From positions 1-36,899 of the forward strand of contig JAAYIH010000055.1 of the NCBI GenBank assembly GCA_012523545.1: a stretch of DNA of 36,899 nucleotides, read 5' to 3'. Source of the stretch: Bacillota bacterium (GTDB taxonomy: Bacteria; Bacillota; Proteinivoracia; UBA4975). Below the pieces are notes generated by a model. The model saw only the letters and a program-made list of their open reading frames with translations. It ran no database searches and was not told where the DNA came from. Of the stretch, positions 3,364 through 19,434 are shown one piece after another. The translations under genes were made by a program, and so were the position numbers. How positions within the stretch are numbered: position 1 is the stretch's first letter; each line of letters begins with the position of its first letter.

Positions 3364-3448
3364 GGGGAGGCAGCAGGGCCAAAAAGCTTCCCGGGTGCAG
3401 GAAATTTGGCAGTTGTGGCAAATTATACAGGTGAAAGGGGGAAGGGAT

Positions 3449-5089
3449 ATGGCCATGTCGACGCTGGCGCCGGGAATGCCGGCTGTACTGATTCTGGACC
3501 GGGAAGCAGTGGTGCGCCATGTCAGCGACAATGTGCGCCAGGTGCTGGGGGATGCCGCAATCCAGGCGGGGAAACCCCTGCCCGCCGCCCTCCGGGGGTG
3601 GAAAGGGGAAAACCCCTGGCAAACCGAGTACGCAGGCAGAGAGCTCAGTATCGTGGCCGAAGAGTGGAACGGCTATACCCTTCTGCTCATCTGCGACCGC
3701 TACAACGTTTATGCCGAAGCCGCCGCAATACTCAACGCCATCGACGAGGGCATCCATGTGGTCAACAAGCACGGGCGGACGGTGTTTTACAATCCTGCCA
3801 TGGCCAAACTGGAAGGCATGGACTACAACCAGGTGCTGCACAAAAAAGTGCTGGATATGTTTCCCTCCCTGACGCCGGAAACCAGCACCATCCTCCGGGT
3901 GCTGAAAACCCGGGAACCCATCTACGACCAGGTGCAGACTTATTTCAACCACAAAGGCCAGCGCATAACTTCGGTGAACAGCACCATTCCCCTGTGGAGC
4001 GGAGACAAATTCATCGGCGTGGTGGAACTGGCCAAGGATGTGACGCGCATGGAAGCCCTGGCGCAGAAAGTGGTGGACCTGCAACAGCGGCTGTACCGCC
4101 GCCAGCACGGCGCGGAACTGCCCTCCACCCAGTACACCTTCGCAGACATCGTGGGGGAGAGCCCCGCCCTGCGCCGCCCCCTGGAACTGGCCCGGCGCGC
4201 TGCCCGGACCAGTTCGCCCGTCCTCATCTACGGGGAGACGGGGACCGGTAAAGAGCTGGTGGCGCAAAGCATCCATAACTTCAGTCCCCGCCGCAACGGT
4301 CCCTTCATTGCCCAGAACTGCGCCGCCCTGCCCGGATCGCTGCTGGAAGGGATTTTGTTCGGCACCGTCAAGGGCAGCTTCACCGGCGCCGCCGACCGGC
4401 CCGGCCTGATTGAACAGGCCGATGGAGGCACTTTGCTGTTGGATGAAATCAACTCCATGGACATCGACCTCCAGGCCAAACTGTTGCGGGTGCTCCAGGA
4501 CAACCGGGTGCGCCGGGTGGGGGGACTCAAGGAAGTGCCGGTCAACGTGCGCTTTATCGCCACCACCAACACCCTGCCCCAAACCGCTATCGCGCAGGGC
4601 AGCCTGCGCCAGGACCTCTATTACCGCCTGGCGGTGGTCAACATCGCCCTGCCCGCCCTGCGCCAGCGCAGGGAAGATATACCCCTGCTCTGCCGCCACT
4701 TTGTGGACAAGTATAACCGCCGCTTTGGCCTTGCCGTCAAGGGCATTGCACCGGCGGTAATGAACCTGTTCCAGGCTTACTCCTGGCCCGGCAACGTGCG
4801 GGAGCTGGAGCACGTCATCGAGGGCGCCATGAATATAATGGCCTCCGACGAAGAATACATCGACCTCTGCCATCTGCCCGCCAGCCTGGCGCCTCAGGCC
4901 GCGCCGGCGCCGGCGGGACTGGAGGAATGCACGCTGCCCGAGGCGGTGGCCAGGGTGGAGCGCAGCATGATCGAAGCGGCCATGGCCAAAACCGGCGGCA
5001 ACATTACCCGGGCGGCCCGGCTGCTGGGCATAACCCGCCAGGCCCTGCAGTACAAGCTGGGCAAGTACGGCATCCTGGCGGAACAGTAA
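3449..5089 (+). CDS. Sigma-54-dependent transcriptional activator, PAS-AAA+-Fis (RocR/BkdR type)
   Basis: The 546-residue protein is an enhancer-binding activator of RNA polymerase carrying sigma-54. A divergent N-terminal sensor (1-90) is followed by a PAS domain (about 91-210, with AILNAIDEGIHVVN and FYNPAMAKLEGM). The AAA+ core has Walker A GETGTGKE at 262-269, the sigma-54-contacting loop as GSFTGA at 309-314 (the usual motif is GAFTGA), Walker B GGTLLLDEIN near 330, and WPGNVREL near the end of the core. A Fis-type helix-turn-helix ends the protein (NITRAARLLGITRQALQYKL). The longer open frame upstream is not coding; ATG 3449 follows AAAGGGGG with good spacing. The RocR/BkdR-like plan and the sigma-54-type promoter at 9269 make the ornithine operon its likely target; this is inference. 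A 6-bp inverted repeat (3403-3408/3419-3424) upstream could be an operator. Confidence 0.9.
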   Translation: MAMSTLAPGMPAVLILDREAVVRHVSDNVRQVLGDAAIQAGKPLPAALRGWKGENPWQTEYAGRELSIVAEEWNGYTLLLICDRYNVYAEAAAILNAIDEGIHVVNKHGRTVFYNPAMAKLEGMDYNQVLHKKVLDMFPSLTPETSTILRVLKTREPIYDQVQTYFNHKGQRITSVNSTIPLWSGDKFIGVVELAKDVTRMEALAQKVVDLQQRLYRRQHGAELPSTQYTFADIVGESPALRRPLELARRAARTSSPVLIYGETGTGKELVAQSIHNFSPRRNGPFIAQNCAALPGSLLEGILFGTVKGSFTGAADRPGLIEQADGGTLLLDEINSMDIDLQAKLLRVLQDNRVRRVGGLKEVPVNVRFIATTNTLPQTAIAQGSLRQDLYYRLAVVNIALPALRQRREDIPLLCRHFVDKYNRRFGLAVKGIAPAVMNLFQAYSWPGNVRELEHVIEGAMNIMASDEEYIDLCHLPASLAPQAAPAPAGLEECTLPEAVARVERSMIEAAMAKTGGNITRAARLLGITRQALQYKLGKYGILAEQ

Positions 5090-8145: not shown

Positions 8146-9180
8146 GTGAAGAAGTACCTGGCCCTGTTGCTGGCCCTGGCCATGATCCTGGCGGCGGTGC
8201 CGGCTGCTGCGGCTGCCCAGCAGGGAAGTTCCGAGGAAGAAACAGTGCAAGTGGTGGTTACTGTAGTAGAGGACGAGACGGAAAGCGACCAGGAAGAGGC
8301 CGCCGAAAACGAAACTGAAGAGCCGGCGGACGCTGAAGAAGAAGCCGCCGAAACTGAAGAGGAAGGCGAAGATGCAGGTCCCGGCGCAGAGGACGAGGAT
8401 GCCGATGAGGACCAGGACGCCGACGCTGATGAAGACGAAGACGAAGATGAAGACGAGGATGAAGATGAAGATGAGGCGGGCACCGACCCCGGCCTGCTTC
8501 CCGATTCACCCTTCTACTTTTTCAAGCGTCTGCTGGAGAACATAAAGGTCTGGCTCACCTTCAACCAAGAGCGCAAAACCGAACTGCTGGCCGAGCTGGT
8601 GGAGAAGAGGGCTGCAGAACTAAAGGCTCTGGAAGAAAAATATGCCGACAAAGAGCTGAGCAAAAGGCAGCAGCGCATTTTGCAGCGGGCCATTGCCAAT
8701 CTGGAAGAAACGGCCGAAGGCCTGTTTGACCGCATGCTGGAAGACGTGGAGCCGGAAGAACTGGAAGGGCTGGAGCTCACCGACGAGGCTGTGGCGCGTC
8801 TGGAATTGGCCCTGAAAAACATGGGCCGGGCCCTGGCCGGGGTGGAAAGATGTGCGGAATACCAACTCGAGGACTCTGAGGATGAAGACAGCCCTGTGCA
8901 CCACAAGCTGGATAAATACACCGAGCGCATCCGCCACCTGGAACAAATCCGCGACCGCAATCCCGAAGCGGCCCGGGATGGCCTCAACCGGGCCATAGAA
9001 AACGCCCGCCGCCAGCAGCGGCGCTGGGCCGTAAAACACGGTCTGTCCCTGGAGGACTTTGACGACGACGCCGAAGATGAGCCGGCAGATGAAGACGAAG
9101 GCAATCCCGGCAAGGGCAATAAAGGCAACACCGGCAAGGGCCAGCTCAAGGAGAAGAAAAACAAAGGCAAAGACAAGTAA
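8146..9180 (+). CDS. Secreted acidic protein with DUF5667-like domain
   Basis: The 344-residue product starts with a signal peptide (KK then a hydrophobic core, probable cleavage after AAAAA near residue 23). Residues about 28-110 are almost only Asp, Glu and Ala, including an uninterrupted E/D run near 95-110. Then comes a DUF5667-like helical region, recognised by DPGLLPDSPFYFFKRLLE and the helix after it (about 113-210), and a coiled, charged region. The C-terminal tail is Gly/Lys/Asn-rich and strongly basic. A polyacidic front and a polybasic end on one secreted protein suggest an extracytoplasmic, possibly metal- or wall-binding role; this is inference, as DUF5667 has no known function. 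GTG at 8146 is set by AAAGGAGG at 8130. A strong terminator follows. Confidence 0.8.
   Translation: MKKYLALLLALAMILAAVPAAAAAQQGSSEEETVQVVVTVVEDETESDQEEAAENETEEPADAEEEAAETEEEGEDAGPGAEDEDADEDQDADADEDEDEDEDEDEDEDEAGTDPGLLPDSPFYFFKRLLENIKVWLTFNQERKTELLAELVEKRAAELKALEEKYADKELSKRQQRILQRAIANLEETAEGLFDRMLEDVEPEELEGLELTDEAVARLELALKNMGRALAGVERCAEYQLEDSEDEDSPVHHKLDKYTERIRHLEQIRDRNPEAARDGLNRAIENARRQQRRWAVKHGLSLEDFDDDAEDEPADEDEGNPGKGNKGNTGKGQLKEKKNKGKDK
8424..8475 (+). repeat. GAX-codon (Asp/Glu) low-complexity tract
   Basis: Consecutive GAA, GAC, GAT and GAG codons form an imperfect 3- and 6-base repeat inside the acidic protein gene. It encodes an alternating Glu/Asp run. Such tracts can change length by slippage in frame without breaking the protein. 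Confidence 0.7.
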
Positions 9181-9181
9181 T

Positions 9182-9195
9182 GCAAAAGATTTTGC
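9182..9195. promoter_or_regulatory. Palindrome GCAAAA-GA-TTTTGC, candidate upstream activator site
   Basis: A perfect 6+6 inverted repeat with a 2-base centre begins two bases after the stop codon of the acidic protein gene. It lies about 75 bp upstream of the -24/-12 element in front of ord. Sigma-54 activators bind palindromes at such distances. Only one copy is visible, so assignment is weak. Confidence 0.3.
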
Positions 9196-9198
9196 GTA

Positions 9199-9233
9199 TC
9201 CTGGCGCCAAGTTTCTGGCGCCAGGATTTTTTT
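9199..9233 (+). terminator. Strong rho-independent terminator
   Basis: TCCTGGCGCCA (9199-9209) and TGGCGCCAGGA (9216-9226) form a perfect 11-bp stem with a 6-base loop, followed by seven T. It isolates the ornithine operon from the acidic-protein gene upstream. Confidence 0.92.
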
Positions 9234-9268
9234 ACGTCCCCGCGCCCTTGTCCGCGCCAATCTCAGCC

Positions 9269-9284
9269 GGGCATGATTTTTGCA
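9269..9284 (+). promoter_or_regulatory. Sigma-54 (-24/-12) promoter of the ornithine operon
   Basis: The sequence GGGCATGATTTTTGCA has GG at 9270-9271 and GC at 9282-9283, exactly ten bases apart. It agrees with the consensus TGGCACG-N4-TTGCA at all but two defined positions. Transcription would begin near 9295, about 40 bases before the ord start codon. An activator of the required class is encoded at 3449-5089. Confidence 0.72.
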
Positions 9285-9334
9285 ATAGAGCAAGGGGAAC
9301 CCTAAGTATAATACTGGCAAAAGGAGTGTTGGTT

Positions 9335-10384
9335 GTGACGGTACGCGTCATCCATTGGGGCCTCGGCGCCATGGGCGGCGGCATGGTCAAGCTGCTGGAC
9401 GCCAAAGCGGGCGCCGCAAGCGTCGCCGCCATCGATGCCGATCCCGGCAAGCAGGGCAAGACCCTGGCCGAACTCTTTGGCGTCAGAAGCCGGGCGCAGG
9501 TGACCGCCGATCCCGCCCAGGCCCTGGCTGCCGAGGCCGATGTGGTGCTCATCGCTACGGGGTCCTTTACCCGGGAGGTTTTTCCCCAAATCGTCCAGGC
9601 CGTGGAAGCCGGCAAAAACGTCATTTGCATCGCCGAAGAAATGGCCTTTCCCCACCAGCAACAGCCGGAGCTGGCCGCCCAAATCCACAAGCTGGCGGTG
9701 GAAAACAAGGTCACCGTCCTGGGCACCGGCATCAACCCCGGTTTTGTGCTGGACCTGCTCATCGTCGCCCTCACCGGCGTCTGTTATTCCGTCAGGGAAA
9801 TAAGGGCCTCCCGCATCAACGACCTTTCGCCCTTCGGGCCCACCGTCATGAAGACCCAGGGCGTCGGCACCACCCCCGAAGAGTTTGCCGCCGGAGTCGA
9901 GGCCGGCACCATCGTCGGCCACGTCGGTTTTCCCGAGTCCATTGCCATGATTGCCGCCGCCCTGGGCTGGGAGCTGGACGAAATCCGCCAGACCAAGGAA
10001 CCCATCATCGCCAAAAAATACAGGGAAACTCCCCATGTCCAGGTCCAGCCCGGCATGGTGGCGGGCTGCCGCCACATTGCATACGGCATCAAGGACGGCG
10101 AGACTGTCATCACCCTCATTCATCCCCAGCAGGTCCGTCCCGAGGTCGAGGGGGTGGAGACCGGAGACTTCATTGAAATTTACGGCGAGCCCGACATCAG
10201 GCTGGCCATTCGGCCAGAAATTCCCGGCGGCATCGGCACCATCGCCCTGGCGGTTAACTCAATTCCCAATGTCATCGCCAGCAGCCCCGGCCTCAAGAAC
10301 ATGACCCAGCTGCCGGTGCCATCCGCCCTCATGGCCGACATCCGTACGCTGATGGAGAAGAGGAGGGATTACTTTGGCCAATAA
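9335..10384 (+). CDS. ord: 2,4-diaminopentanoate dehydrogenase
   Basis: The 349-residue protein is Ord, which oxidatively deaminates (2R,4S)-2,4-diaminopentanoate to 2-amino-4-oxopentanoate with NAD(P). A DapB-like Rossmann motif GLGAMGGG lies at about residues 9-16. AAEADVVLIATGS follows, then GTGINPGFVLDLL near 130 and a DapB-type C-terminal fold. Size and neighbours (ortAB, oraSE, orr) fit the known anaerobic ornithine gene cluster. GTG at 9335 is chosen because AAAGGAG ends 8 bases upstream; the TTG and GTG just before are too close to it, and the long upstream frame runs through the terminator. It is the first gene of the operon, behind the -24/-12 promoter, and overlaps ortA by 11 bases. 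Confidence 0.93.
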   Translation: MTVRVIHWGLGAMGGGMVKLLDAKAGAASVAAIDADPGKQGKTLAELFGVRSRAQVTADPAQALAAEADVVLIATGSFTREVFPQIVQAVEAGKNVICIAEEMAFPHQQQPELAAQIHKLAVENKVTVLGTGINPGFVLDLLIVALTGVCYSVREIRASRINDLSPFGPTVMKTQGVGTTPEEFAAGVEAGTIVGHVGFPESIAMIAAALGWELDEIRQTKEPIIAKKYRETPHVQVQPGMVAGCRHIAYGIKDGETVITLIHPQQVRPEVEGVETGDFIEIYGEPDIRLAIRPEIPGGIGTIALAVNSIPNVIASSPGLKNMTQLPVPSALMADIRTLMEKRRDYFGQ

Positions 10385-10688
10385 TCCAGTGGCGCCGGGA
10401 ACCTGGGTGCAGATACGGATACAAATTCTGCCCCCCGGCCAACGCGCCCCTCAGGTGCCTCCCGACACCGCCCAAGTGCCCCTCATCATGCTGGCCAAGG
10501 GGTTCCTGGTCGGCGAGGCTGAAATAGGCGACACCGTCCGGATTAAAACCCTCAGCGGCCGCATCCTGGAAGGAGAACTGGTGCAGGTCCTGCCCCGGTA
10601 CAGCCACGACTTCGGCCAGGCCGTGCCCGAGCTCCTGAGCATCGGCCCCCGGGTGCGGGCCCTGCTGGAAGGAGGAAAAGAGCAGTGA
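10374..10688 (+). CDS. ortA: 2-amino-4-oxopentanoate thiolase, small subunit
   Basis: The 104-residue product matches OrtA, the small subunit of the PLP-dependent thiolase that splits 2-amino-4-oxopentanoate with CoA into alanine and acetyl-CoA. It has the expected small size, the pattern VQIRIQILPPGQRAPQVPPDT, then VPLIMLAKGFLVGEAEIGD and TLSGRILEGELVQV, and sits directly before ortB. The start is TTG at 10374, placed by AGGAGGGA at 10361-10368. The gene overlaps the end of ord by 11 bases and the start of ortB by 4 (GTGA), consistent with coupled translation of the two subunits. Confidence 0.92.
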   Translation: MANNPVAPGTWVQIRIQILPPGQRAPQVPPDTAQVPLIMLAKGFLVGEAEIGDTVRIKTLSGRILEGELVQVLPRYSHDFGQAVPELLSIGPRVRALLEGGKEQ

Positions 10689-12088
10689 AGGACAACAGCT
10701 ACCAGGCGGTAATGGCTCGCAGCAACGACATCATGAAGCAGGCGGTGGGCATCGACTACACCCGCTTTGTCCGCGGCCGCCTGGCCTTTGATTACCAGGC
10801 CATGATGACGGAGGCGGGCTACAGCCTGGACGAAGTGGCTGCCATCCAGCAGGAGACCGGCGTCGGCAACACGCCCCTCTACGAATTGCGCAACATAACC
10901 AGGCTGGTGCGCCTCACCGCCCCCAAGGGCAAGGGCGCCCGCATATTCCTCAAGGACGAAGCCGCCAACCCCTCCGGCAGCTTTAAAGCCCGCCGCGCCG
11001 CCCTTTCGGTTTACCACGCCGCCAAACACGGCTACAAAGGAGTAGTGGCCGCTACCAGCGGAAATTACGGCGCCGCCGTAGCCTCCCAGGCCGCCGCCCG
11101 CGGGCTCAAATGCATAGTCATCCAGGAGGCCTTTGACAGCCGCGGCGTCTACCAGCCTGAAATTGCCGAAAAGGGCCGGGCCTGCGAAGCTTACGGCGCC
11201 GAAGTTCTGCAGCTTTCGGTGGGCCCGGAACTTTTCTACGTCTTTCTGCGCACCCTGGAGGAGACGGGCTTCTTCAACGCTTCGCTGTACACTCCCTTCG
11301 CCATCGCCGGGGTGGAAACCCTGGGTTGGGAAATCGCCCGGCAAATGCGGGAAAAATACCAGGTCGAGCCCGACGTGGTGGTGGTCACCCATGCCGGCGG
11401 CGGTAACCTCACCGGCACAGCCCGGGGCCTGCGCAAGGCCGGATGCCGCGCCCGGGTGGTGGCAGCCAGCGTCGACCTCAGGGGACTGCACATGGCCAGC
11501 GATGCCGACTTCAACCGCAAGTCCTTTACCACCGGGCACACCGGCTTTGGCGTGCCCTTTGCCACCTGGCCCGACCGGGCCGACGTGCCCCGCAATGCCG
11601 CCCGTCCCCTGCGCTACATGGACCGCTACGTCACCGTCACCCAGGGAGAGGCCTTCTACGTCACCGAGCTCCTGGCTCAGCTGGAAGGCCTGGAACGGGG
11701 TCCGGCAGGCAACATCTCCCTGGCCGCCGCCATGGCCCTGGCCCGGGAGATGGACCGGGACCAGGTCGTGGTGGTGCAGGAAACCGAATACACCGGCGCC
11801 GGCAAGCATGTCACAGCCCAGCTCAGCTTTGCCCGGCAAAACGGCATTGAGGTCAGGGCCGGCGACCCCGCCGACAGCGTACCCGGCCGGTCCATAATCC
11901 TGCCCGAGCATCCCGGCCTGATCCGGGCAGTGGACATTGATCTCGACGGCCTGCGGCGTTCGTATATCAAAAACGCTCTGGCCCAGCTGGACGGGGCGGA
12001 GCTGACGGCGGCGGACATCAGCTTCCTGGCCGAAGACTGCCGTTGCACGCCCGAATTTGTCCAAGCAATTGCCCGCGAGGTGAAATAA
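10685..12088 (+). CDS. ortB: 2-amino-4-oxopentanoate thiolase, large PLP subunit
   Basis: The 467-residue protein has the fold-type II PLP-enzyme pattern of threonine synthase relatives. The PLP lysine is probably Lys101 in NPSGSFKARRAA. SGNYGAAVA follows as the substrate/PLP phosphate loop near 128, and a glycine-rich THAGGGNLTG near 240. It is the catalytic subunit of OrtAB, the thiolase that makes alanine and acetyl-CoA from 2-amino-4-oxopentanoate. Acetyl-CoA can then yield ATP through phosphotransacetylase and acetate kinase (not in this window). A GTG start overlaps the ortA stop; the TAATG end overlaps oraS by one base. Confidence 0.93.
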   Translation: MKDNSYQAVMARSNDIMKQAVGIDYTRFVRGRLAFDYQAMMTEAGYSLDEVAAIQQETGVGNTPLYELRNITRLVRLTAPKGKGARIFLKDEAANPSGSFKARRAALSVYHAAKHGYKGVVAATSGNYGAAVASQAAARGLKCIVIQEAFDSRGVYQPEIAEKGRACEAYGAEVLQLSVGPELFYVFLRTLEETGFFNASLYTPFAIAGVETLGWEIARQMREKYQVEPDVVVVTHAGGGNLTGTARGLRKAGCRARVVAASVDLRGLHMASDADFNRKSFTTGHTGFGVPFATWPDRADVPRNAARPLRYMDRYVTVTQGEAFYVTELLAQLEGLERGPAGNISLAAAMALAREMDRDQVVVVQETEYTGAGKHVTAQLSFARQNGIEVRAGDPADSVPGRSIILPEHPGLIRAVDIDLDGLRRSYIKNALAQLDGAELTAADISFLAEDCRCTPEFVQAIAREVK

Positions 12089-12456
12089 TGGAACGCAAAG
12101 ACGATTTTCAACAGCGGCGCCGGCATTTGGCCGGTCTCAGCGATGAAGAGTTGCACCAAAGGTTTTGGGAACTGCTGGACCAGGTGGTGGAACCCCTGGC
12201 CGAGCTGGCCCGCACCCACACATCCCCCGCCATCGAGCGTTCGGTGCTGTTGCGCATGGGCTTCAGCAGCCTGGAGGCCAAGGCCCTGGTGGAAAAATGC
12301 CAGGAACAGGGGCTGTTGGGTAAAGGGGCCGGGCACGTGGTACTCAAGGCTGCAGAAATTTCCGGCCGGCCCTATCGCGAAGCGGGCCTGGCCCTGATCA
12401 GGGGCGAGCTCTGGCCTCAGGTCACCGCAGAGTTCGCCAGGGGAGGTGGCAGGTAA
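12088..12456 (+). CDS. oraS: D-ornithine 4,5-aminomutase, small subunit
   Basis: The 122-residue product is the small subunit of adenosylcobalamin- and PLP-dependent D-ornithine 4,5-aminomutase. It has the family's length and pattern (DDFQQRRRHLAGLSDEEL at the start, RSVLLRMGFSSLEAKALV in the middle, GHVVLKAA towards the end). In the known enzyme OraS pairs with OraE to shift the amino group of D-ornithine from C5 to C4. Start and stop overlap by a single base with ortB and oraE (TAATG at both junctions), as expected for subunits made in fixed ratio. Confidence 0.92.
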   Translation: MERKDDFQQRRRHLAGLSDEELHQRFWELLDQVVEPLAELARTHTSPAIERSVLLRMGFSSLEAKALVEKCQEQGLLGKGAGHVVLKAAEISGRPYREAGLALIRGELWPQVTAEFARGGGR

Positions 12457-14642
12457 TGGCCCTGAAAATCCATGAGAAAATTGACATCGAGGAAATTCTG
12501 CGGGACCTGGAGCACTACCGGCCCCGCCGCAAGGGCTGGACCTGGCGCAAACCCCTGCCCCCGGGTACCCAAATCGGGCCCTTCCAGTACCGGCAGGCTT
12601 CGGAAAACCTCAAGAACAGCATCTCCCTGCCCGCTGCCAAGTACTTTGGCGGCATCGACCCCCAGCCCGAATGCGTCATCACCACCGAAATTGCTTCAGG
12701 CCGCTTTGAAGACGACATCCGCCGCATGCGCATGGCCGCCTGGCACGGCGCCGACCACATCATGGTCATCCGCACCGCCGGCCAGAGTCACTATGACGGG
12801 CTCATCGAAGGCACGCCCGAGGGCATCGGCGGCGTGCCCATTTCCCGCAAACAGATCCGGGCCACCCGCAAGGCCCTGGACCTCATTGAAGACGAAGTGG
12901 GCCGCCCCATCAATTTTCATTCCTACGTCAGCGGCGTCGCCGGCCCCGACATCGCGGTGCTCTTTGCCGAAGAGGGCGTCAACGGCGCCCACCAGGACCC
13001 CCAGTACAACGTGCTCTACCGCAATGTCAACATGGTGCGCTCCTTTGTCGACGCCGCCGAGGCCAAGAAGATCATGGCCAGCGTCGACATGCTGCAAATC
13101 GACGGCGCCCACAACGCCAACGCCACCGCCCGGGAAGCGTGGAAGGTCATGCCCGAGCTCATGGTGCAGCACGGCATCAACTGCGCCTTCTCGCTGAAAG
13201 CGGGCATGAAGCGTGAGCTCATCAGCCTGTCCACCGTGCCCCCCACCGCGGCGCCGGCGCCGGAGGTGTACATCGACCTCCCCTATGCTGTGGCCCTGCG
13301 GGAGCTCTTTGCCGGCTTCAGGATGCGGGCCCAGATGAACACCAAGTACATGGAGGCCGACCCCCGGGAGGTAACCGTCAACCACACCATGAACCTCCTC
13401 ATTTCCCGCCTGACCAGCGTCGACATTCAGAGCACCATCACCCCCGACGAGGGCCGCAATGTCCCCTGGCACTACAACAACATCGCCGCCGTAAATACTG
13501 CCAAGCAGATGCTCATCGGCCTGGACGGCATCAAGGACATGGTGGAACTGAAAAAGGACGGCATTCTGCGGGAGAAGGTGCGGGAACTCAAGGAACGGGC
13601 AGTGCTCTTCCTGGAAGAGATCATCGCCGTGGGCGGCTATTTCCGGGCCGTGGAGCAGGGCTTCTTCGTCGACTCGGGTTACTATCCCCAGCGCAACGGC
13701 GACGGCATTGTGCGCCGCGTCGACGGCGGCGTCGCCGCTGATACTGTGGTGCCCCGGGACGATGACTACCTGGCCCCGGTCTGCCATCACTACGGTTACA
13801 ACAACCTGCCCCCGGGCCTGGCTCAACCCTGCGCCCTCATCGACGGGTGCACGCTGTGCAATCCCGACAAAATCGCCTACATCGACGAGCTGGACGAAGA
13901 GGACAACGTCGGCAAGCGCCTGGAAGCTACAGCCGAGCACCGCCAAAAGGGCCTGCTCCGGCCCGAGGTGGAATGGTATGCCGACGGCATCGTCAGCATC
14001 AACCTGTTCTTTCCCGCCGACGCCCGGACGGCGGAATACGCCGCCCTGGCCCTGGCCGAGAAGATGGGCATCAAAGATGCCGAGGTCATCAACCGCCTGC
14101 CCCTGCATCCCGCTGAAGGCACCTTCCTGGAGCTCAAGGGCAGGGTAGAAATCGACATCGATCCTGCAACCCTGCACATTCCCGAAGAAAAGCCCTTGCT
14201 GTCGGAAGAGGAAATCCGCCGGGCCGTCAAAGAAAACCCCATGACCGTCGTGGCCGCCACGGTGGGCGAGGACGAGCATTCGGTGGGCATGCGGGAAATC
14301 ATCGACATCAAGCACGGCGGCATCGAAGGCTACGGCATCAAGTGCCACTACCTGGGCACCTCAGTCCCGGTGGAAAAGGTGGTGGACGCCGCCATTGAAA
14401 CCGCCGCCGACGCCATCCTCATCAGCACCATTATCACCCACGCCGACATCCACCGCATCAACATGCGCAAGCTCAACGACCTCTGCGTTGAAAAGGGCAT
14501 TCGCGACAAGATCCTGCTGGTGGCCGGGGGGACCCAGGTCACCAACGACATCGCCGTGGAAGAGGGCATGGACGCCGGCTTTGGCCGCGGCACCAAGGGC
14601 CACGCCGTGGCCAGCTTCCTGGTGGAAAACCGGCGGCGCTGA
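12456..14642 (+). CDS. oraE: D-ornithine 4,5-aminomutase, large B12/PLP subunit
   Basis: The 728-residue protein is OraE, the catalytic subunit of the mutase that turns D-ornithine into (2R,4S)-2,4-diaminopentanoate. The first 550 residues or so form the barrel part (from residue 28, with FGGIDPQPECVITTEIASG near 65). The C-terminal B12-binding domain carries the base-off motif DEHSVG at 606-611, so His608 is the expected cobalt ligand. Lys619, eleven residues on in EIIDIKHGGIEGYG, is the expected PLP lysine; as I recall, the C. sticklandii enzyme uses His618 and Lys629, the same spacing. The cobalamin fold ends with LLVAGGTQVTND and GFGRGTKG. All key residues are intact, so the enzyme should be active if the cell makes or imports cobalamin. 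Confidence 0.95.
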   Translation: MALKIHEKIDIEEILRDLEHYRPRRKGWTWRKPLPPGTQIGPFQYRQASENLKNSISLPAAKYFGGIDPQPECVITTEIASGRFEDDIRRMRMAAWHGADHIMVIRTAGQSHYDGLIEGTPEGIGGVPISRKQIRATRKALDLIEDEVGRPINFHSYVSGVAGPDIAVLFAEEGVNGAHQDPQYNVLYRNVNMVRSFVDAAEAKKIMASVDMLQIDGAHNANATAREAWKVMPELMVQHGINCAFSLKAGMKRELISLSTVPPTAAPAPEVYIDLPYAVALRELFAGFRMRAQMNTKYMEADPREVTVNHTMNLLISRLTSVDIQSTITPDEGRNVPWHYNNIAAVNTAKQMLIGLDGIKDMVELKKDGILREKVRELKERAVLFLEEIIAVGGYFRAVEQGFFVDSGYYPQRNGDGIVRRVDGGVAADTVVPRDDDYLAPVCHHYGYNNLPPGLAQPCALIDGCTLCNPDKIAYIDELDEEDNVGKRLEATAEHRQKGLLRPEVEWYADGIVSINLFFPADARTAEYAALALAEKMGIKDAEVINRLPLHPAEGTFLELKGRVEIDIDPATLHIPEEKPLLSEEEIRRAVKENPMTVVAATVGEDEHSVGMREIIDIKHGGIEGYGIKCHYLGTSVPVEKVVDAAIETAADAILISTIITHADIHRINMRKLNDLCVEKGIRDKILLVAGGTQVTNDIAVEEGMDAGFGRGTKGHAVASFLVENRRR

Positions 14643-14654
14643 GAGGTGGGGTCA

Positions 14655-16034
14655 GTGAAACTGGAGATAATAGTGGCGGAAATCGGCAGCACCACCACCG
14701 TGGTCAGCGGCTTTACCGGCCTGGACTCCTCACCCCGCCTGGCCGGCCAGGGCCAGGGTCCCACAACTGTGGAAGAAGGGGACGTGCGCCGGGGCCTCAA
14801 CCTGGCCCTGGCCGATCTCCGGGACAAACTGGGCGCCGCTGACCTGGACTGGGACCACATCTGCGCCTGCAGCAGCGCCGCCGGCGGCTTGAAAATGACG
14901 GTTCACGGCCTGGTTTACGACATGACGGTGCGGGCGGCCCGGGAAGCTGCCCTGGGGGCCGGGGCGGTGCTGCGCCATCTCACCGCCGGTCCCATTGCCG
15001 ATTCCGACCTGGAGAAAATCGCCGCCATCCGCCCCAACATCATCCTCCTGGCCGGGGGCGTGGACTACGGCGAGCGCGGCATCGTCCTGGAAAATGCCGA
15101 GAAACTGGCCAGCCTCGACCTGCCCGTCCCCCTGATTTACGCCGGCAATGTCGCCGTTCAGGAGGAAGTGCGGCGCATATTTCGGCCCACCCGCTACCGG
15201 CTCATCGTGGTGGAGAACGTCTATCCGCGCATCGACGAGCTCAACATCGAGCCCACCCGCCGCGCAATCCAGGCCGCCTTTGAAGAACACATCGTCGACG
15301 CCCCCGGCATGGGCAAGATCCGGGAGCTGGTGGACGGGCCCATCCAGCCGGTGCCCGGCGCGGTGCTCAACGCCGCCGTTGCCCTGTACCAGCGCCTGGG
15401 CGACCTCATGGTCTTCGACGTCGGCGGCGCCACCACCGACCTGCATTCCGTCACTCCCGGTTCCGACGAAGTCAATGCCATTTTGCTCAATCCCGAGCCC
15501 CTGGCCAAGCGCACGGTGGAAGGGGATTTGGGCGTTTACCGCAATGCCGGCAACCTCATCGCCCTCATCGGCCGGGAGGAACTGGCCGCCCGCCTGGGCA
15601 CGCCCGAACCGGAAAGGCACGTCGTCCCCATCCCCGCCGCTGAGCCGGAAATAGCCCTGGCCCGGGAACTGGCCCGGGCGGCGGTCAGGACCGCCCTGGA
15701 GCGCCATGCCGGCCGCATCAAACACGTGTACGGCCCCGGCGGCAGAATCAAAATGGCCCGGGGCAAGGACCTGACCCGGGTGCGCTGGATCATCGGCACC
15801 GGCGGCGCCCTGACCCGCCTGCCCCGGCCCGAAGAGATTCTGGTCGGGGTGCGGGGCCATCCCGATCCCGCATTTCTTGGGCCGCCGGCCGAGGCCAGGA
15901 TAGTCATCGACCGGCATTACATCATGGCCGCTGCAGGGGTTTTGGCCCACAGCCATCCCCGGGCGGCGGTAGAGCTGATGCTCAATTCCGCAGGAATACA
16001 GGGGGAGAGCCATGCAACCCAAACTCAGCATTGA
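14655..16034 (+). CDS. GlmL/MutL-like ATPase of the ornithine operon (putative mutase reactivase)
   Basis: The 459-residue protein resembles GlmL/MutL proteins, ASKHA-fold ATPases found beside B12-dependent mutases. The phosphate-1 loop is EIGSTTTVVSGF at the N terminus, ILLAGGVDYGE lies near 125, and the phosphate-2 loop VFDVGGATTDLHSV near 255. The usual proposal, from other B12 mutases, is a chaperone that exchanges damaged cobalamin; that role for ornithine mutase is not proved. GTG at 14655 is preferred to the GTG at 14646, because AGGTGG at 14644-14649 lies 5 bases before the former and overlaps the latter. It starts 12 bases after oraE and overlaps orr by 23 bases. Confidence 0.88.
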   Translation: MKLEIIVAEIGSTTTVVSGFTGLDSSPRLAGQGQGPTTVEEGDVRRGLNLALADLRDKLGAADLDWDHICACSSAAGGLKMTVHGLVYDMTVRAAREAALGAGAVLRHLTAGPIADSDLEKIAAIRPNIILLAGGVDYGERGIVLENAEKLASLDLPVPLIYAGNVAVQEEVRRIFRPTRYRLIVVENVYPRIDELNIEPTRRAIQAAFEEHIVDAPGMGKIRELVDGPIQPVPGAVLNAAVALYQRLGDLMVFDVGGATTDLHSVTPGSDEVNAILLNPEPLAKRTVEGDLGVYRNAGNLIALIGREELAARLGTPEPERHVVPIPAAEPEIALARELARAAVRTALERHAGRIKHVYGPGGRIKMARGKDLTRVRWIIGTGGALTRLPRPEEILVGVRGHPDPAFLGPPAEARIVIDRHYIMAAAGVLAHSHPRAAVELMLNSAGIQGESHATQTQH

Positions 16035-17079
16035 CCTGGATAAGATACGGGCCAACGCCGCCCTCCTGGCCCAATTGTGCCGGCAACGGGGGGTTGTGGT
16101 GGCGGGAGTGACCAAGGCCGCCTGCGGCGATCCCCTGGTGGCCCGGGCCATGCTGGCCGGCGGCCTGGAGCTGCTGGCCGAATCGCGGCTGGAAAACGCC
16201 CGCCGCCTGCGGGCGGCGGGGATCACCGCGCCCCTGATGCTGCTGCGCCTGCCCATGCCCGGCCAGGCCCGGGAAGTGGTGGAACTCTTTCAGTGCAGCC
16301 TCAACTCGGAGCTGGCTGCCATTAAGGCGTTAAATGAAGCCGCCGGCGCCGCCGGCCTGTGCCACGACATCATCCTCATGGTCGACCTGGGCGACCTCCG
16401 GGAAGGCATCTGGCCCGACGCCCTGGACGAATATGTTCGGGAAATTGCCCGGCTGGAGCACATCCGCCTGTTGGGCCTGGGCACCAACCTGACCTGCTAC
16501 GGCGGAGTCATTCCCAGCCCGGAAAACCTGGGCCGCCTGGTGCAATACCACAGGCGGGCGGAAGCAATTTACGGCCGCCCCCTGCCGGTCATCTCCGGCG
16601 GCAATTCCAGCAGCCTGCCCCTGGTGCTGGCCGGGACGCTGCCGCCCATTACCCAGCTGCGCCTGGGCGAAAGCATCCTCCTGGGCCGGGAGACGACGGC
16701 CAGGCAGCCCATTCCCGGCGCCCATCTGGACTGTTTCCGGCTGGAGGCCGAAATTATCGAACTGAAGGAAAAGCCGTCGCTGCCGGTGGGTGAAATCGGC
16801 CAGGACGCCTTTGGCGGCGCGCCCGTCTTTGTGGACAAAGGCATCCGCCGCCGGGCCATACTGGCCCTGGGCCGCCAGGACGTTGTGCCGGAAAGCCTCA
16901 CCCCGCCCCCGGGCGCCGAAATCCTGGGCGCCAGCAGCGACCACCTCATCGTCGACGTGACGGACTATCCCGAGCCCCTGGCGGTGGGCGACGTCCTCGC
17001 CTTTAACCTGGGTTATGGCGCGCTGCTGGCCGCCATGACTTCGCCGTACGTAGGCAAGGAATATTGCGGAGAGAGGTGA
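16012..17079 (+). CDS. orr: Ornithine racemase, fold-type III PLP enzyme
   Basis: The 355-residue protein has the alanine-racemase N-terminal barrel. Lys35 in VVAGVTKAACG is the PLP lysine. HDIILMVDLGDLREG near 118-133 and ISGGNSSSLPLVL near 197 are other conserved strands, and the C-terminal domain is short. In this gene cluster such enzymes convert L-ornithine to D-ornithine, the substrate of OraSE. The start is ATG 16012, inside the last 23 bases of the preceding gene, after AGGGGGAGAG. General amino-acid racemase annotation is the main alternative, but the position in the ornithine operon supports Orr. Only five bases separate its stop from the start of the next gene. Confidence 0.92.
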   Translation: MQPKLSIDLDKIRANAALLAQLCRQRGVVVAGVTKAACGDPLVARAMLAGGLELLAESRLENARRLRAAGITAPLMLLRLPMPGQAREVVELFQCSLNSELAAIKALNEAAGAAGLCHDIILMVDLGDLREGIWPDALDEYVREIARLEHIRLLGLGTNLTCYGGVIPSPENLGRLVQYHRRAEAIYGRPLPVISGGNSSSLPLVLAGTLPPITQLRLGESILLGRETTARQPIPGAHLDCFRLEAEIIELKEKPSLPVGEIGQDAFGGAPVFVDKGIRRRAILALGRQDVVPESLTPPPGAEILGASSDHLIVDVTDYPEPLAVGDVLAFNLGYGALLAAMTSPYVGKEYCGER

Positions 17080-17084
17080 AATTC

Positions 17085-18446
17085 ATGTCCTCGGTTGTCT
17101 TTGCCGGTTTCGTCCCCCACCCGCCGCTGCTGGTGGAGGGCATTGGCGACAAAGAAAAGGCTGCGGTCCGGGAAACCGATGCCGCCTACCGGGAATTTTC
17201 CCGCCGGCTGGCGGCGAAAAATCCCGATACCGTGGTGGTGGTCACCCCCCACGGGCCGGTCTTTTCCGACGCCTACACCATGGCGGACTGGGATCCCCTC
17301 CGGGGCGATTTCACGCCCTTTGGCGCCACGGTGGCCATGTCCTGGCCCTGCAACTGTGCTTACGTCCGCCGGGCGGAAGCCCTGGCCCGGGAGCGGGACC
17401 TGCCCCTGGTGGCCCTGAGCCCCCGGCAACTGGCAGCTCATCGCCACAGCGCCGTCCTCGACCACGGGACCATGGTGCCCCTGTGGTACCTGGAGCAGGC
17501 CGGCTGGCGGGGGCGGGTGGTGTGCGTGCGCATCGGCGGCCTGCCGCCGGCGCAATGCTATGCCGTTGGCCGGGTGCTGGCCCAGGCCGCCCAGGAGCCC
17601 ACCGCCATCGTCGCCAGCGGCGATTTGTCCCACTGCCTGACCGAAAATGCCCCTTCGCCGTATAATCCCGCTGGAGCGGAATTTGACGGAATGATCCGGA
17701 ACGCCCTGGCCCGGGGAGATTTCCAGGCCGTCGTTTCCATCCCCCCCGACCTGCGGCTGCGGGCGGCGGAGTGCGGTTGGCGCCCCCTGGTCACCCTGCT
17801 GGGCGCTTTGGCCGGCCGCAGTTGCACCACCGAGGTCCTCAGTTACCAGGGGCCCTTTGGCGTCGGTTACCTGGTGGCCACTCTTGAGCCAGGCCCCGGC
17901 AACGGCGCCGTGGTGGAGTTCGCGACAAAAGGTCTCGCCGCTGCCAGCCCCCACGTCCGGCTGGCCCGGGAGGCCATCCGCCATTATCTCACCAGCGGCC
18001 GGGTGCTGGACCCCGTCGCAGAGCCGCCGCTGGACCGCCGGGCGGCGGCCTTCGTCAGCCTCAAGCTGGACGACCAGCTGCGGGGATGCATTGGCACCGT
18101 GGAGCCCACGCAACCCCACCTGGCCGGGGAAATAGTGGCCAATGCCATCGCCGCCGCCACCCGGGATCCCCGCTTTGCGCCGGTAACCCTGGCCGAACTG
18201 GACCAGCTGAGCATCAGCGTCGATGTGCTGGGTGCGCCTGCCCCCGCCCGGTTTTCTCAGCTGGACCCCGCCCGGCTGGGCCTCATTGCCCGCTGGCGGG
18301 GCAGACAGGGCCTGCTGCTGCCCGATTTGCCCGGAGTCGACACCCCCGAAGAGCAGCTGCGCATAGTGTGCGCCAAGGCGGGCATCCCCCCGGACAAGGC
18401 CGGGGAAGCCGAGCTCTTCACCTTTACCGTCGAGAGGTACCATTAG
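17085..18446 (+). CDS. AmmeMemoRadiSam system: MEMO-like class III extradiol domain fused to AMMECR1
   Basis: The 453-residue protein joins two families that are usually separate. Residues 1 to about 265 form a MEMO/LigB-type extradiol-dioxygenase-like domain, with His12 (FVPHPPLL) and His56 (VVTPHGPV) where LigB enzymes have two iron ligands, and further conserved His127 (LDHGTMVPL) and His183 (SGDLSH). Residues about 275-453 form an AMMECR1 domain with the signature LRGCIGT at 332-338 and ATRDPRF near 365. The reaction is unknown; the family name reflects the repeated association of these two domains with a radical SAM enzyme, which follows here after one base. ATG 17085 is set by GAGAGGTGA. 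It begins 5 bases after orr, so it is probably co-transcribed with the ornithine genes. Confidence 0.88.
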   Translation: MSSVVFAGFVPHPPLLVEGIGDKEKAAVRETDAAYREFSRRLAAKNPDTVVVVTPHGPVFSDAYTMADWDPLRGDFTPFGATVAMSWPCNCAYVRRAEALARERDLPLVALSPRQLAAHRHSAVLDHGTMVPLWYLEQAGWRGRVVCVRIGGLPPAQCYAVGRVLAQAAQEPTAIVASGDLSHCLTENAPSPYNPAGAEFDGMIRNALARGDFQAVVSIPPDLRLRAAECGWRPLVTLLGALAGRSCTTEVLSYQGPFGVGYLVATLEPGPGNGAVVEFATKGLAAASPHVRLAREAIRHYLTSGRVLDPVAEPPLDRRAAAFVSLKLDDQLRGCIGTVEPTQPHLAGEIVANAIAAATRDPRFAPVTLAELDQLSISVDVLGAPAPARFSQLDPARLGLIARWRGRQGLLLPDLPGVDTPEEQLRIVCAKAGIPPDKAGEAELFTFTVERYH

Positions 18447-18447
18447 C

Positions 18448-19434
18448 ATGCACGAAGCCAGGTATTGGGACCCCGGGCAGGACGGCGTCGTGCACTGCCG
18501 CCTCTGTCCCCACGGTTGCCGGATAAGGCCTGGGGAAGCAGGGATCTGCCGGGTGCGCTGCAACCGCGGGGGCACGCTGTACGCCGCCAATTACGGCCAG
18601 GTCTCGGGCCTGGCCCTGGACCCCATCGAAAAGAAGCCCCTGTACCACTTTTACCCGGGCAGCCTCATCCTGTCGGCGGGTTCCTGGGGCTGCAACCTGT
18701 CCTGCGGCTTTTGCCAAAACTGGGCCAGCGTCACCCGCCAGTACCCTACCCGTACCCTCACTCCGGCCCAGCTGGCCGACCTGGCCCTGTCCCTCGTCGA
18801 CAGGGGCAACTGCGGCGTGGCCTTTACCTACACCGAACCCCTGATGTGGTATGAATTTGTCCGCGACGCCGCTCCCCTGGTGCGGGAGCGGGGCCTTAAG
18901 ACCGTCCTGGTCACCAACGGCTTTATCCGGGAACGGCCCTGGCTGGAATTGCTGGAACACATCGACGCCGTCAACATCGACCTCAAAGCCTTCCGCCCCG
19001 ATTTCTACCGCCGCTGGTGCGGCGGCAGCCTGGCCCCGGTGCGGCGGGCCATCGCCGCGGCGGCGGAGCGCTGCCACGTGGAGATTACCACGCTGCTCAT
19101 CGAAGGGCGCAACACCGGGGAGGAGGAAATTCGGGAACTGGCCGCCTTCATCGCTGCCATCGACCCCGGCATACCCCTGCACCTGTCCCGTTACCACCCC
19201 GCCCATAAGTGGACCCAGCCGCCCACTGACCCCGGCCTCATTCGCGCCCTGGCCGACTTGGCCCGGGAGCAGCTGGACCACGTCTATACCGGCAACCTGC
19301 CCGAGTCGTGGCAGCTGCCCACCCGCTGTCCCCGGTGCAAACACGTCCTGGTCCGGCGCGGCATTGCCGTAACCGCAGACGTCGAGGACGGGCGCTGTCC
19401 CCAGTGCCGACAGCCCGTAAACATCCGCTTCTGA
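18448..19434 (+). CDS. amrS: AmmeMemoRadiSam system radical SAM enzyme
   Basis: The 328-residue protein has an N-terminal cysteine-rich segment (Cys17, Cys20, Cys24, Cys34, Cys38) like that of pyruvate formate-lyase-activating-enzyme relatives. The radical SAM cluster motif follows as CNLSCGFC with Cys82, Cys86 and Cys89. FTYTEPLMWYEF near 130 and VNIDLKAF near 173 are conserved strands of the AmrS group. The C terminus adds a second zinc-ribbon-like CxxC pair (TRCPRCKH and GRCPQCRQ). It should form a 5'-deoxyadenosyl radical; target and product are unknown. A glycyl-radical-activating role has been the default annotation for relatives, but no glycyl radical enzyme is visible here. It begins one base after the MEMO-AMMECR1 stop and ends the long operon. 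Confidence 0.9.
   Translation: MHEARYWDPGQDGVVHCRLCPHGCRIRPGEAGICRVRCNRGGTLYAANYGQVSGLALDPIEKKPLYHFYPGSLILSAGSWGCNLSCGFCQNWASVTRQYPTRTLTPAQLADLALSLVDRGNCGVAFTYTEPLMWYEFVRDAAPLVRERGLKTVLVTNGFIRERPWLELLEHIDAVNIDLKAFRPDFYRRWCGGSLAPVRRAIAAAAERCHVEITTLLIEGRNTGEEEIRELAAFIAAIDPGIPLHLSRYHPAHKWTQPPTDPGLIRALADLAREQLDHVYTGNLPESWQLPTRCPRCKHVLVRRGIAVTADVEDGRCPQCRQPVNIRF

Follow-up and report, generated by a model that had tools for sequence, protein, structure and literature searches.

A predicted sigma-54 promoter and a linked OrdR-like activator at an ornithine fermentation operon of an uncultured Bacillota bacterium

The window analysed here is a stretch of 36,899 nucleotides from a Bacillota bacterium (contig JAAYIH010000055.1 of assembly GCA_012523545.1). 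Family models identify in it one run of ornithine degradation genes on the forward strand, from 9335 to 17079. The run begins with ord, encoding 2,4-diaminopentanoate dehydrogenase from a GTG start (9335-10384; NF040740, 496 bits against a cut-off of 400), and continues with ortA (10374-10688; NF040739) and ortB (10685-12088; NF040741) for subunits of 2-amino-4-oxopentanoate thiolase, oraS (12088-12456, with an inferred start; PF16552) and oraE (12456-14642; NF040743) for the small and large subunits of D-ornithine 4,5-aminomutase, and or-4 for a GlmL-related ornithine degradation protein (14646-16034; NF040744). The last gene, orr (16012-17079), is ornithine racemase-like, its NF040742 score of 428 bits falling just below the cut-off of 480. 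Directly after orr, with no gap, lie AmmeMemoRadiSam genes (a fused MEMO/AMMECR1 gene and a radical SAM enzyme gene, 17064-19434), which also follow orr in the three relatives with enough sequence. On the other side of the run, 8146-9180 encodes a 344-residue protein that is extremely acidic (D/E-rich) and looks secreted; it recurs in relatives at 52-58% identity and has no NCBIfam match, and its gene ends right at the palindrome described below.

A regulatory gene lies further upstream on the same strand (3449-5089), its end 4.2 kb from ord. Its product had been described in the original prediction as a PAS-AAA+-Fis activator, and Pfam bears out this domain plan, with PAS at residues 95-200, Sigma54_activat at 234-399, an AAA lid and HTH_8/Fis at 500-540. 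Residues 1-90 (3449-3715) form an extension ahead of PAS that is common to the activators of the order; matches from the rest of the class begin only at about residue 93. Genes for a peptidase, a reductase-like protein and the acidic protein stand between activator and ord, and the sister genus shows the same arrangement. Family f4 has the activator gene directly ahead of ord, about 1.5 kb from start to start.

The putative sigma-54 promoter of the operon, GGGCATGATTTTTGCA, occupies 9269-9284 on the forward strand. The sequence is as originally described: GG (9270-9271) and GC (9282-9283) of the -24/-12 element are separated by ten bases and flanked by consensus positions, and the ord GTG at 9335 stands 50 bp past the end of the string. 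The count of two departures from consensus was slightly overstated. The change of T to G at the first position holds, whereas at the sixth position clostridial sigma-54 promoters more commonly carry T (C. difficile SigL table, PMC7438776), which leaves one real departure. Judging from the position of the -12 element and sigma-54 promoter geometry, the transcription start would be expected at 9294-9296 on the forward strand. This position is surrounded by a block just past the -12 box (9290-9305, AAGGGGAAACCTAAAAT in relatives) that is kept in family f1 and partly in f3.

Taken alone, the string GGGCATGATTTTTGCA proves nothing, because a consensus search allowing two mismatches returned 124 matches in the 37-kb window against 125 expected from shuffles, with no enrichment; the window is GC-rich, and the bare -24/-12 string is as frequent there as in shuffled sequence. 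With a scoring matrix derived from the published table of SigL promoters of C. difficile (PMC7438776), chance alone would give about 1.5 sites of this quality in the window, counting both strands, and 0.003-0.006 in the ord leader. Across the genome, exact GGCAYN5TTGCW sites number 23, against 3 for the reversed control, and the only one in the window is that at 9270.

We accepted the promoter as real because it is conserved in relatives, which were gathered at family, order, class and phylum level and whose ord leaders were read. The element precedes ord in 13/13 class genomes (8 loci of the order and 5 further loci of the class) and stays while the leader around it diverges; its form is TGGYAYGNTTTTTGCAW in family f1 and of the TGGCAYN6TGC type in the rest of the class. 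A linked PAS-AAA+-Fis activator, upstream and on the same strand, was found in 12 of these 13 genomes, the contig of the thirteenth being too short. In most class genomes, and likewise in most of family f40, it is the copy near ord that matches the window's activator best. In a maximum-likelihood tree, the activators of the class group in a single clade linked to ord (support 97/96), and those of f40 and f48 form another fully ord-linked clade; more distant ord-linked activators are scattered among unlinked ones. A single origin of ord-linked activators throughout the phylum was rejected, since the ord-linked state has to change 6 times on the tree. One activator with 58% identity (L161, G362:C48:2537-3913) belongs to a genome without an ord match; either the assembly lacks ord, or this activator serves another target.

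The original prediction proposed asking whether promoter and linked activator co-occur across genomes, and the answer was positive. Among 62 ord loci, 27 have both, 9 the promoter only, 1 the linked activator only and 25 neither (Fisher p 1e-8, a nominal value because the loci are related by phylogeny). One of the nine promoter-only loci lacks a linked activator solely because its contig ends. The best sigma-54 score is bimodal over these loci, with 36 at 13 or above and the others at 9.5 or below, and a linked activator accompanies 27/36 of the high-scoring loci versus 1/26 of the others.

A palindrome, TGCAAAAGATTTTGCG (9181-9196), lies 87 bp upstream of the promoter string, and we propose it as the upstream activating sequence (UAS) of the activator. 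It opens the stretch 9181-9269 that had been put forward for activator binding. An intrinsic terminator of the upstream gene (9198-9227, forward strand) falls between it and the promoter. A first pattern, TGCARRAWNNYTKGCR, drew on the family alone and lacked specificity, since at one mismatch it matched the genome 74 times; a class-wide palindrome took its place. Side-by-side reading of the leaders shows that the window and families f4, f40 and f48 have a palindrome, RGCAAAANNTTTTGCR, at a distance of 56-97 bp ahead of the promoter. When a matrix was trained outside the window's order, 9181-9196 ranked top of all window positions, at 19.7 bits versus 14.9 for the runner-up. The 1.73-Mb genome matches the pattern DGCAAAANNTTTTGCV exactly at one place only, 9181-9196. 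In 399 genomes, a composite of palindrome, 44-74 bases and -24/-12 element was found at 7 sites, of which 5 immediately precede ord (G000, G056, G125, G158 and G232), with one match for the reversed control; these two tests are less independent than the matrix, because the window's site had been seen before the pattern was defined. The UAS of the sister genus (g2) is degenerate (TGCAAAAAACCTGGCGC), fused with a terminator stem and not significant individually by the outside-trained matrix.

A variant of the same palindrome, TGCAGGAAATTTGGCA, stands in the leader of the activator gene itself (3396-3411). Palindromes of the GTGCAGGAAATYTTGCAC type recur about 50-65 bp before the activator start in 5 loci of the order and are degenerate in a sixth, which suggests autoregulation. 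A -24/-12 element was sought near these leader palindromes in the order loci, and none was found. RocR is subject to negative autoregulation, and by analogy the simplest reading of the leader palindrome would be autorepression over a sigma-A promoter.

Three other explanations bear on these sites. The housekeeping sigma-A polymerase could transcribe ord through the perfect TATAAT at 9307-9312, 22 bp ahead of the start codon, in which case the -24/-12 string would be incidental. We consider this very improbable and rejected such a promoter: TATAAT has no -35 partner at 16-18 bp, a scan of 9100-9400 returned no sigma-70-type promoter, and the hexamer is absent from all the relatives, in which the -24/-12 element is kept. 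The palindrome at 9181-9196, for its part, might belong to the terminator region of the upstream gene and be no activator site, as it abuts the terminator and the corresponding bases of the sister genus lie within a terminator stem. In the window, however, it is outside the stem of the terminator; the same palindrome recurs 56-97 bp before the promoter in f4, f40 and f48 amid other surroundings; and a terminator leaves the variant copy before the activator gene unexplained. We therefore regard this explanation as unlikely.

It is also conceivable that the ord promoter is sigma-54-dependent and driven by a different activator, the product of 3449-5089 serving other targets. Activator and ord are 4-8 kb apart in several loci, some distant genomes have the ord promoter without a linked activator, and the genome of the window encodes three further full activators. 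Each of these, however, is immediately followed by a -24/-12 site and amino-acid fermentation genes of its own. Moreover, the only place in the genome that matches the UAS exactly is ahead of ord, the variant precedes the 3449-5089 gene, and the linkage between activator and ord is maintained across the class, so we give control by a different activator very little credence. A sigma-54-dependent promoter controlled by the linked activator remains the reading that we favour.

The sigma factor itself, whose absence would have spoken against the original prediction, is encoded: rpoN is present once in the genome (E 2.9e-61). It was found in 56/62 genomes with ord. Where the leader of a genome without rpoN was read, the promoter is absent in three cases (L124, L126 and L136) and present in two (L116 and L010, the latter from a genome 86% complete), a split that makes this test only mildly supportive. 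rpoN carries a near-perfect -24/-12 promoter of its own, TTGGCATCATTCTTGCAG, 65 bp ahead of its start (contig C6, L049:2331-2314, minus strand; L208). This string is kept in 6/6 tested genomes of families f1 and f2 while its flanks diverge, and the element is absent before rpoN in f3, of the same order, and in neighbouring f4. Positive autoregulation of sigma-54 is thus possible, and an active activator could then raise sigma-54 levels. The three other full activators each directly precede their own -24/-12 site (L050:3282, L051:3778 and L052:3896), and the routes concerned are kdd-kamA (lysine), an amino-acid dehydrogenase-buk-ptb cluster and methionine gamma-lyase. Together with that for ornithine, each of the four full activators therefore adjoins a strong -24/-12 promoter for one amino-acid route. 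Whether the main role of sigma-54 in this lineage is in amino-acid fermentation, under positive feedback, is, in our estimate, an even call.

We compared the locus with known systems. The idea that such a pair controls the OraSE route had been offered as a new prediction; it appears to be right, yet it is not new, because it has been published for other taxa. Control of ord-ortBA-oraSEF-orr-nhaC by sigma-54 and OrdR was predicted (Nie et al. 2019, PMC6615313) in five Clostridiales (C. difficile, Romboutsia, Geosporobacter, C. aceticum and C. scatologenes), and in C. difficile the -24/-12 promoter of ord was mapped and CD0441/OrdR assigned (Soutourina et al. 2020, PMC7438776). Dietary ornithine raises expression of the ord locus in C. 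difficile (PMC8803604). The window has the features of an OrdR-type regulon, namely the target operon ord-ort-ora-orr, a Fis-HTH sigma-54 activator near it and, as predicted from sequence, a UAS upstream of the sigma-54 promoter. It shares with the OrdR system the operon, a -24/-12 promoter before ord (TTGGCACGATTTATGCTTT in C. difficile), a Fis-type activator near ord and an activator motif that reportedly departs from the common TGT-N10-ACA; the likeness is at the level of operon, promoter and domains rather than of alignment with CD0441 or the published OrdR motif. The window differs in belonging to another class, in having its activator 4.2 kb off behind intervening genes, in the N-terminal extension and apparent self-site of that activator, and in that no nhaC was found in the operon.

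The activator had originally been likened to RocR of Bacillus subtilis, which acts on rocABC and rocDEF. Both are NtrC/NifA-type activators associated with sigma-54 and with ornithine/arginine catabolism, RocR responding to arginine, ornithine or citrulline with SigL (PMC9245794). The PAS-AAA+-Fis plan is indeed the same, but this is a likeness of architecture only, and OrdR is the better comparison: RocR steers the RocD (ornithine aminotransferase) route, whereas the target linked to the window's activator is ord-ora. The best NCBIfam match of the activator is PrdR, the proline reductase activator (NF041552), with which it has in common the domain plan and an association with Stickland amino-acid metabolism. 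The target operon of PrdR is other than ord, and an assignment as PrdR was rejected, the score of 384.9 bits being far under the 795-bit cut-off.

We thus propose, with a probability of nearly nine in ten, that the ord-ortAB-oraSE-or4-orr operon, which serves oxidative ornithine fermentation, is transcribed from a sigma-54-dependent promoter under activator control. The sigma-54 form of RNA polymerase would sit on 9269-9284 as a closed complex, and the product of 3449-5089 would bind the palindrome at 9181-9196, about 87 bp upstream. Its PAS domain would sense the substrate, probably ornithine; the activator would then loop over and open the complex by ATP hydrolysis, and transcription would begin near 9295. 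A second probable target is the variant palindrome in the leader of its own gene (3396-3411), through which the activator may limit its own synthesis. The promoter, UAS, linkage, co-occurrence and rpoN parts of this model are supported at the sequence level, and the original reading of a sigma-54 promoter with a linked activator is upheld by comparative evidence from conservation, linkage and co-occurrence. Against sigma-54 control of ord counts the entry for a C. difficile sigL mutant, in which no ord change is recorded (NR in the table; rich medium, no inducer; PMC7438776).

The window is therefore best seen as a real, well-supported new example of a known arrangement and not as a new system; new here are an explicit candidate UAS, which is open to testing by mutation, and an example in another class. 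This example would extend control of oxidative ornithine fermentation by sigma-54 and its activator to a different class of uncultured anaerobes. Within the phylum the sample is divided, with a strong -24/-12 site at 36 of 62 ord loci and the remainder apparently controlled otherwise. If the positive-feedback reading of the rpoN promoter is true, the activity of any of the activators could raise sigma-54 levels.
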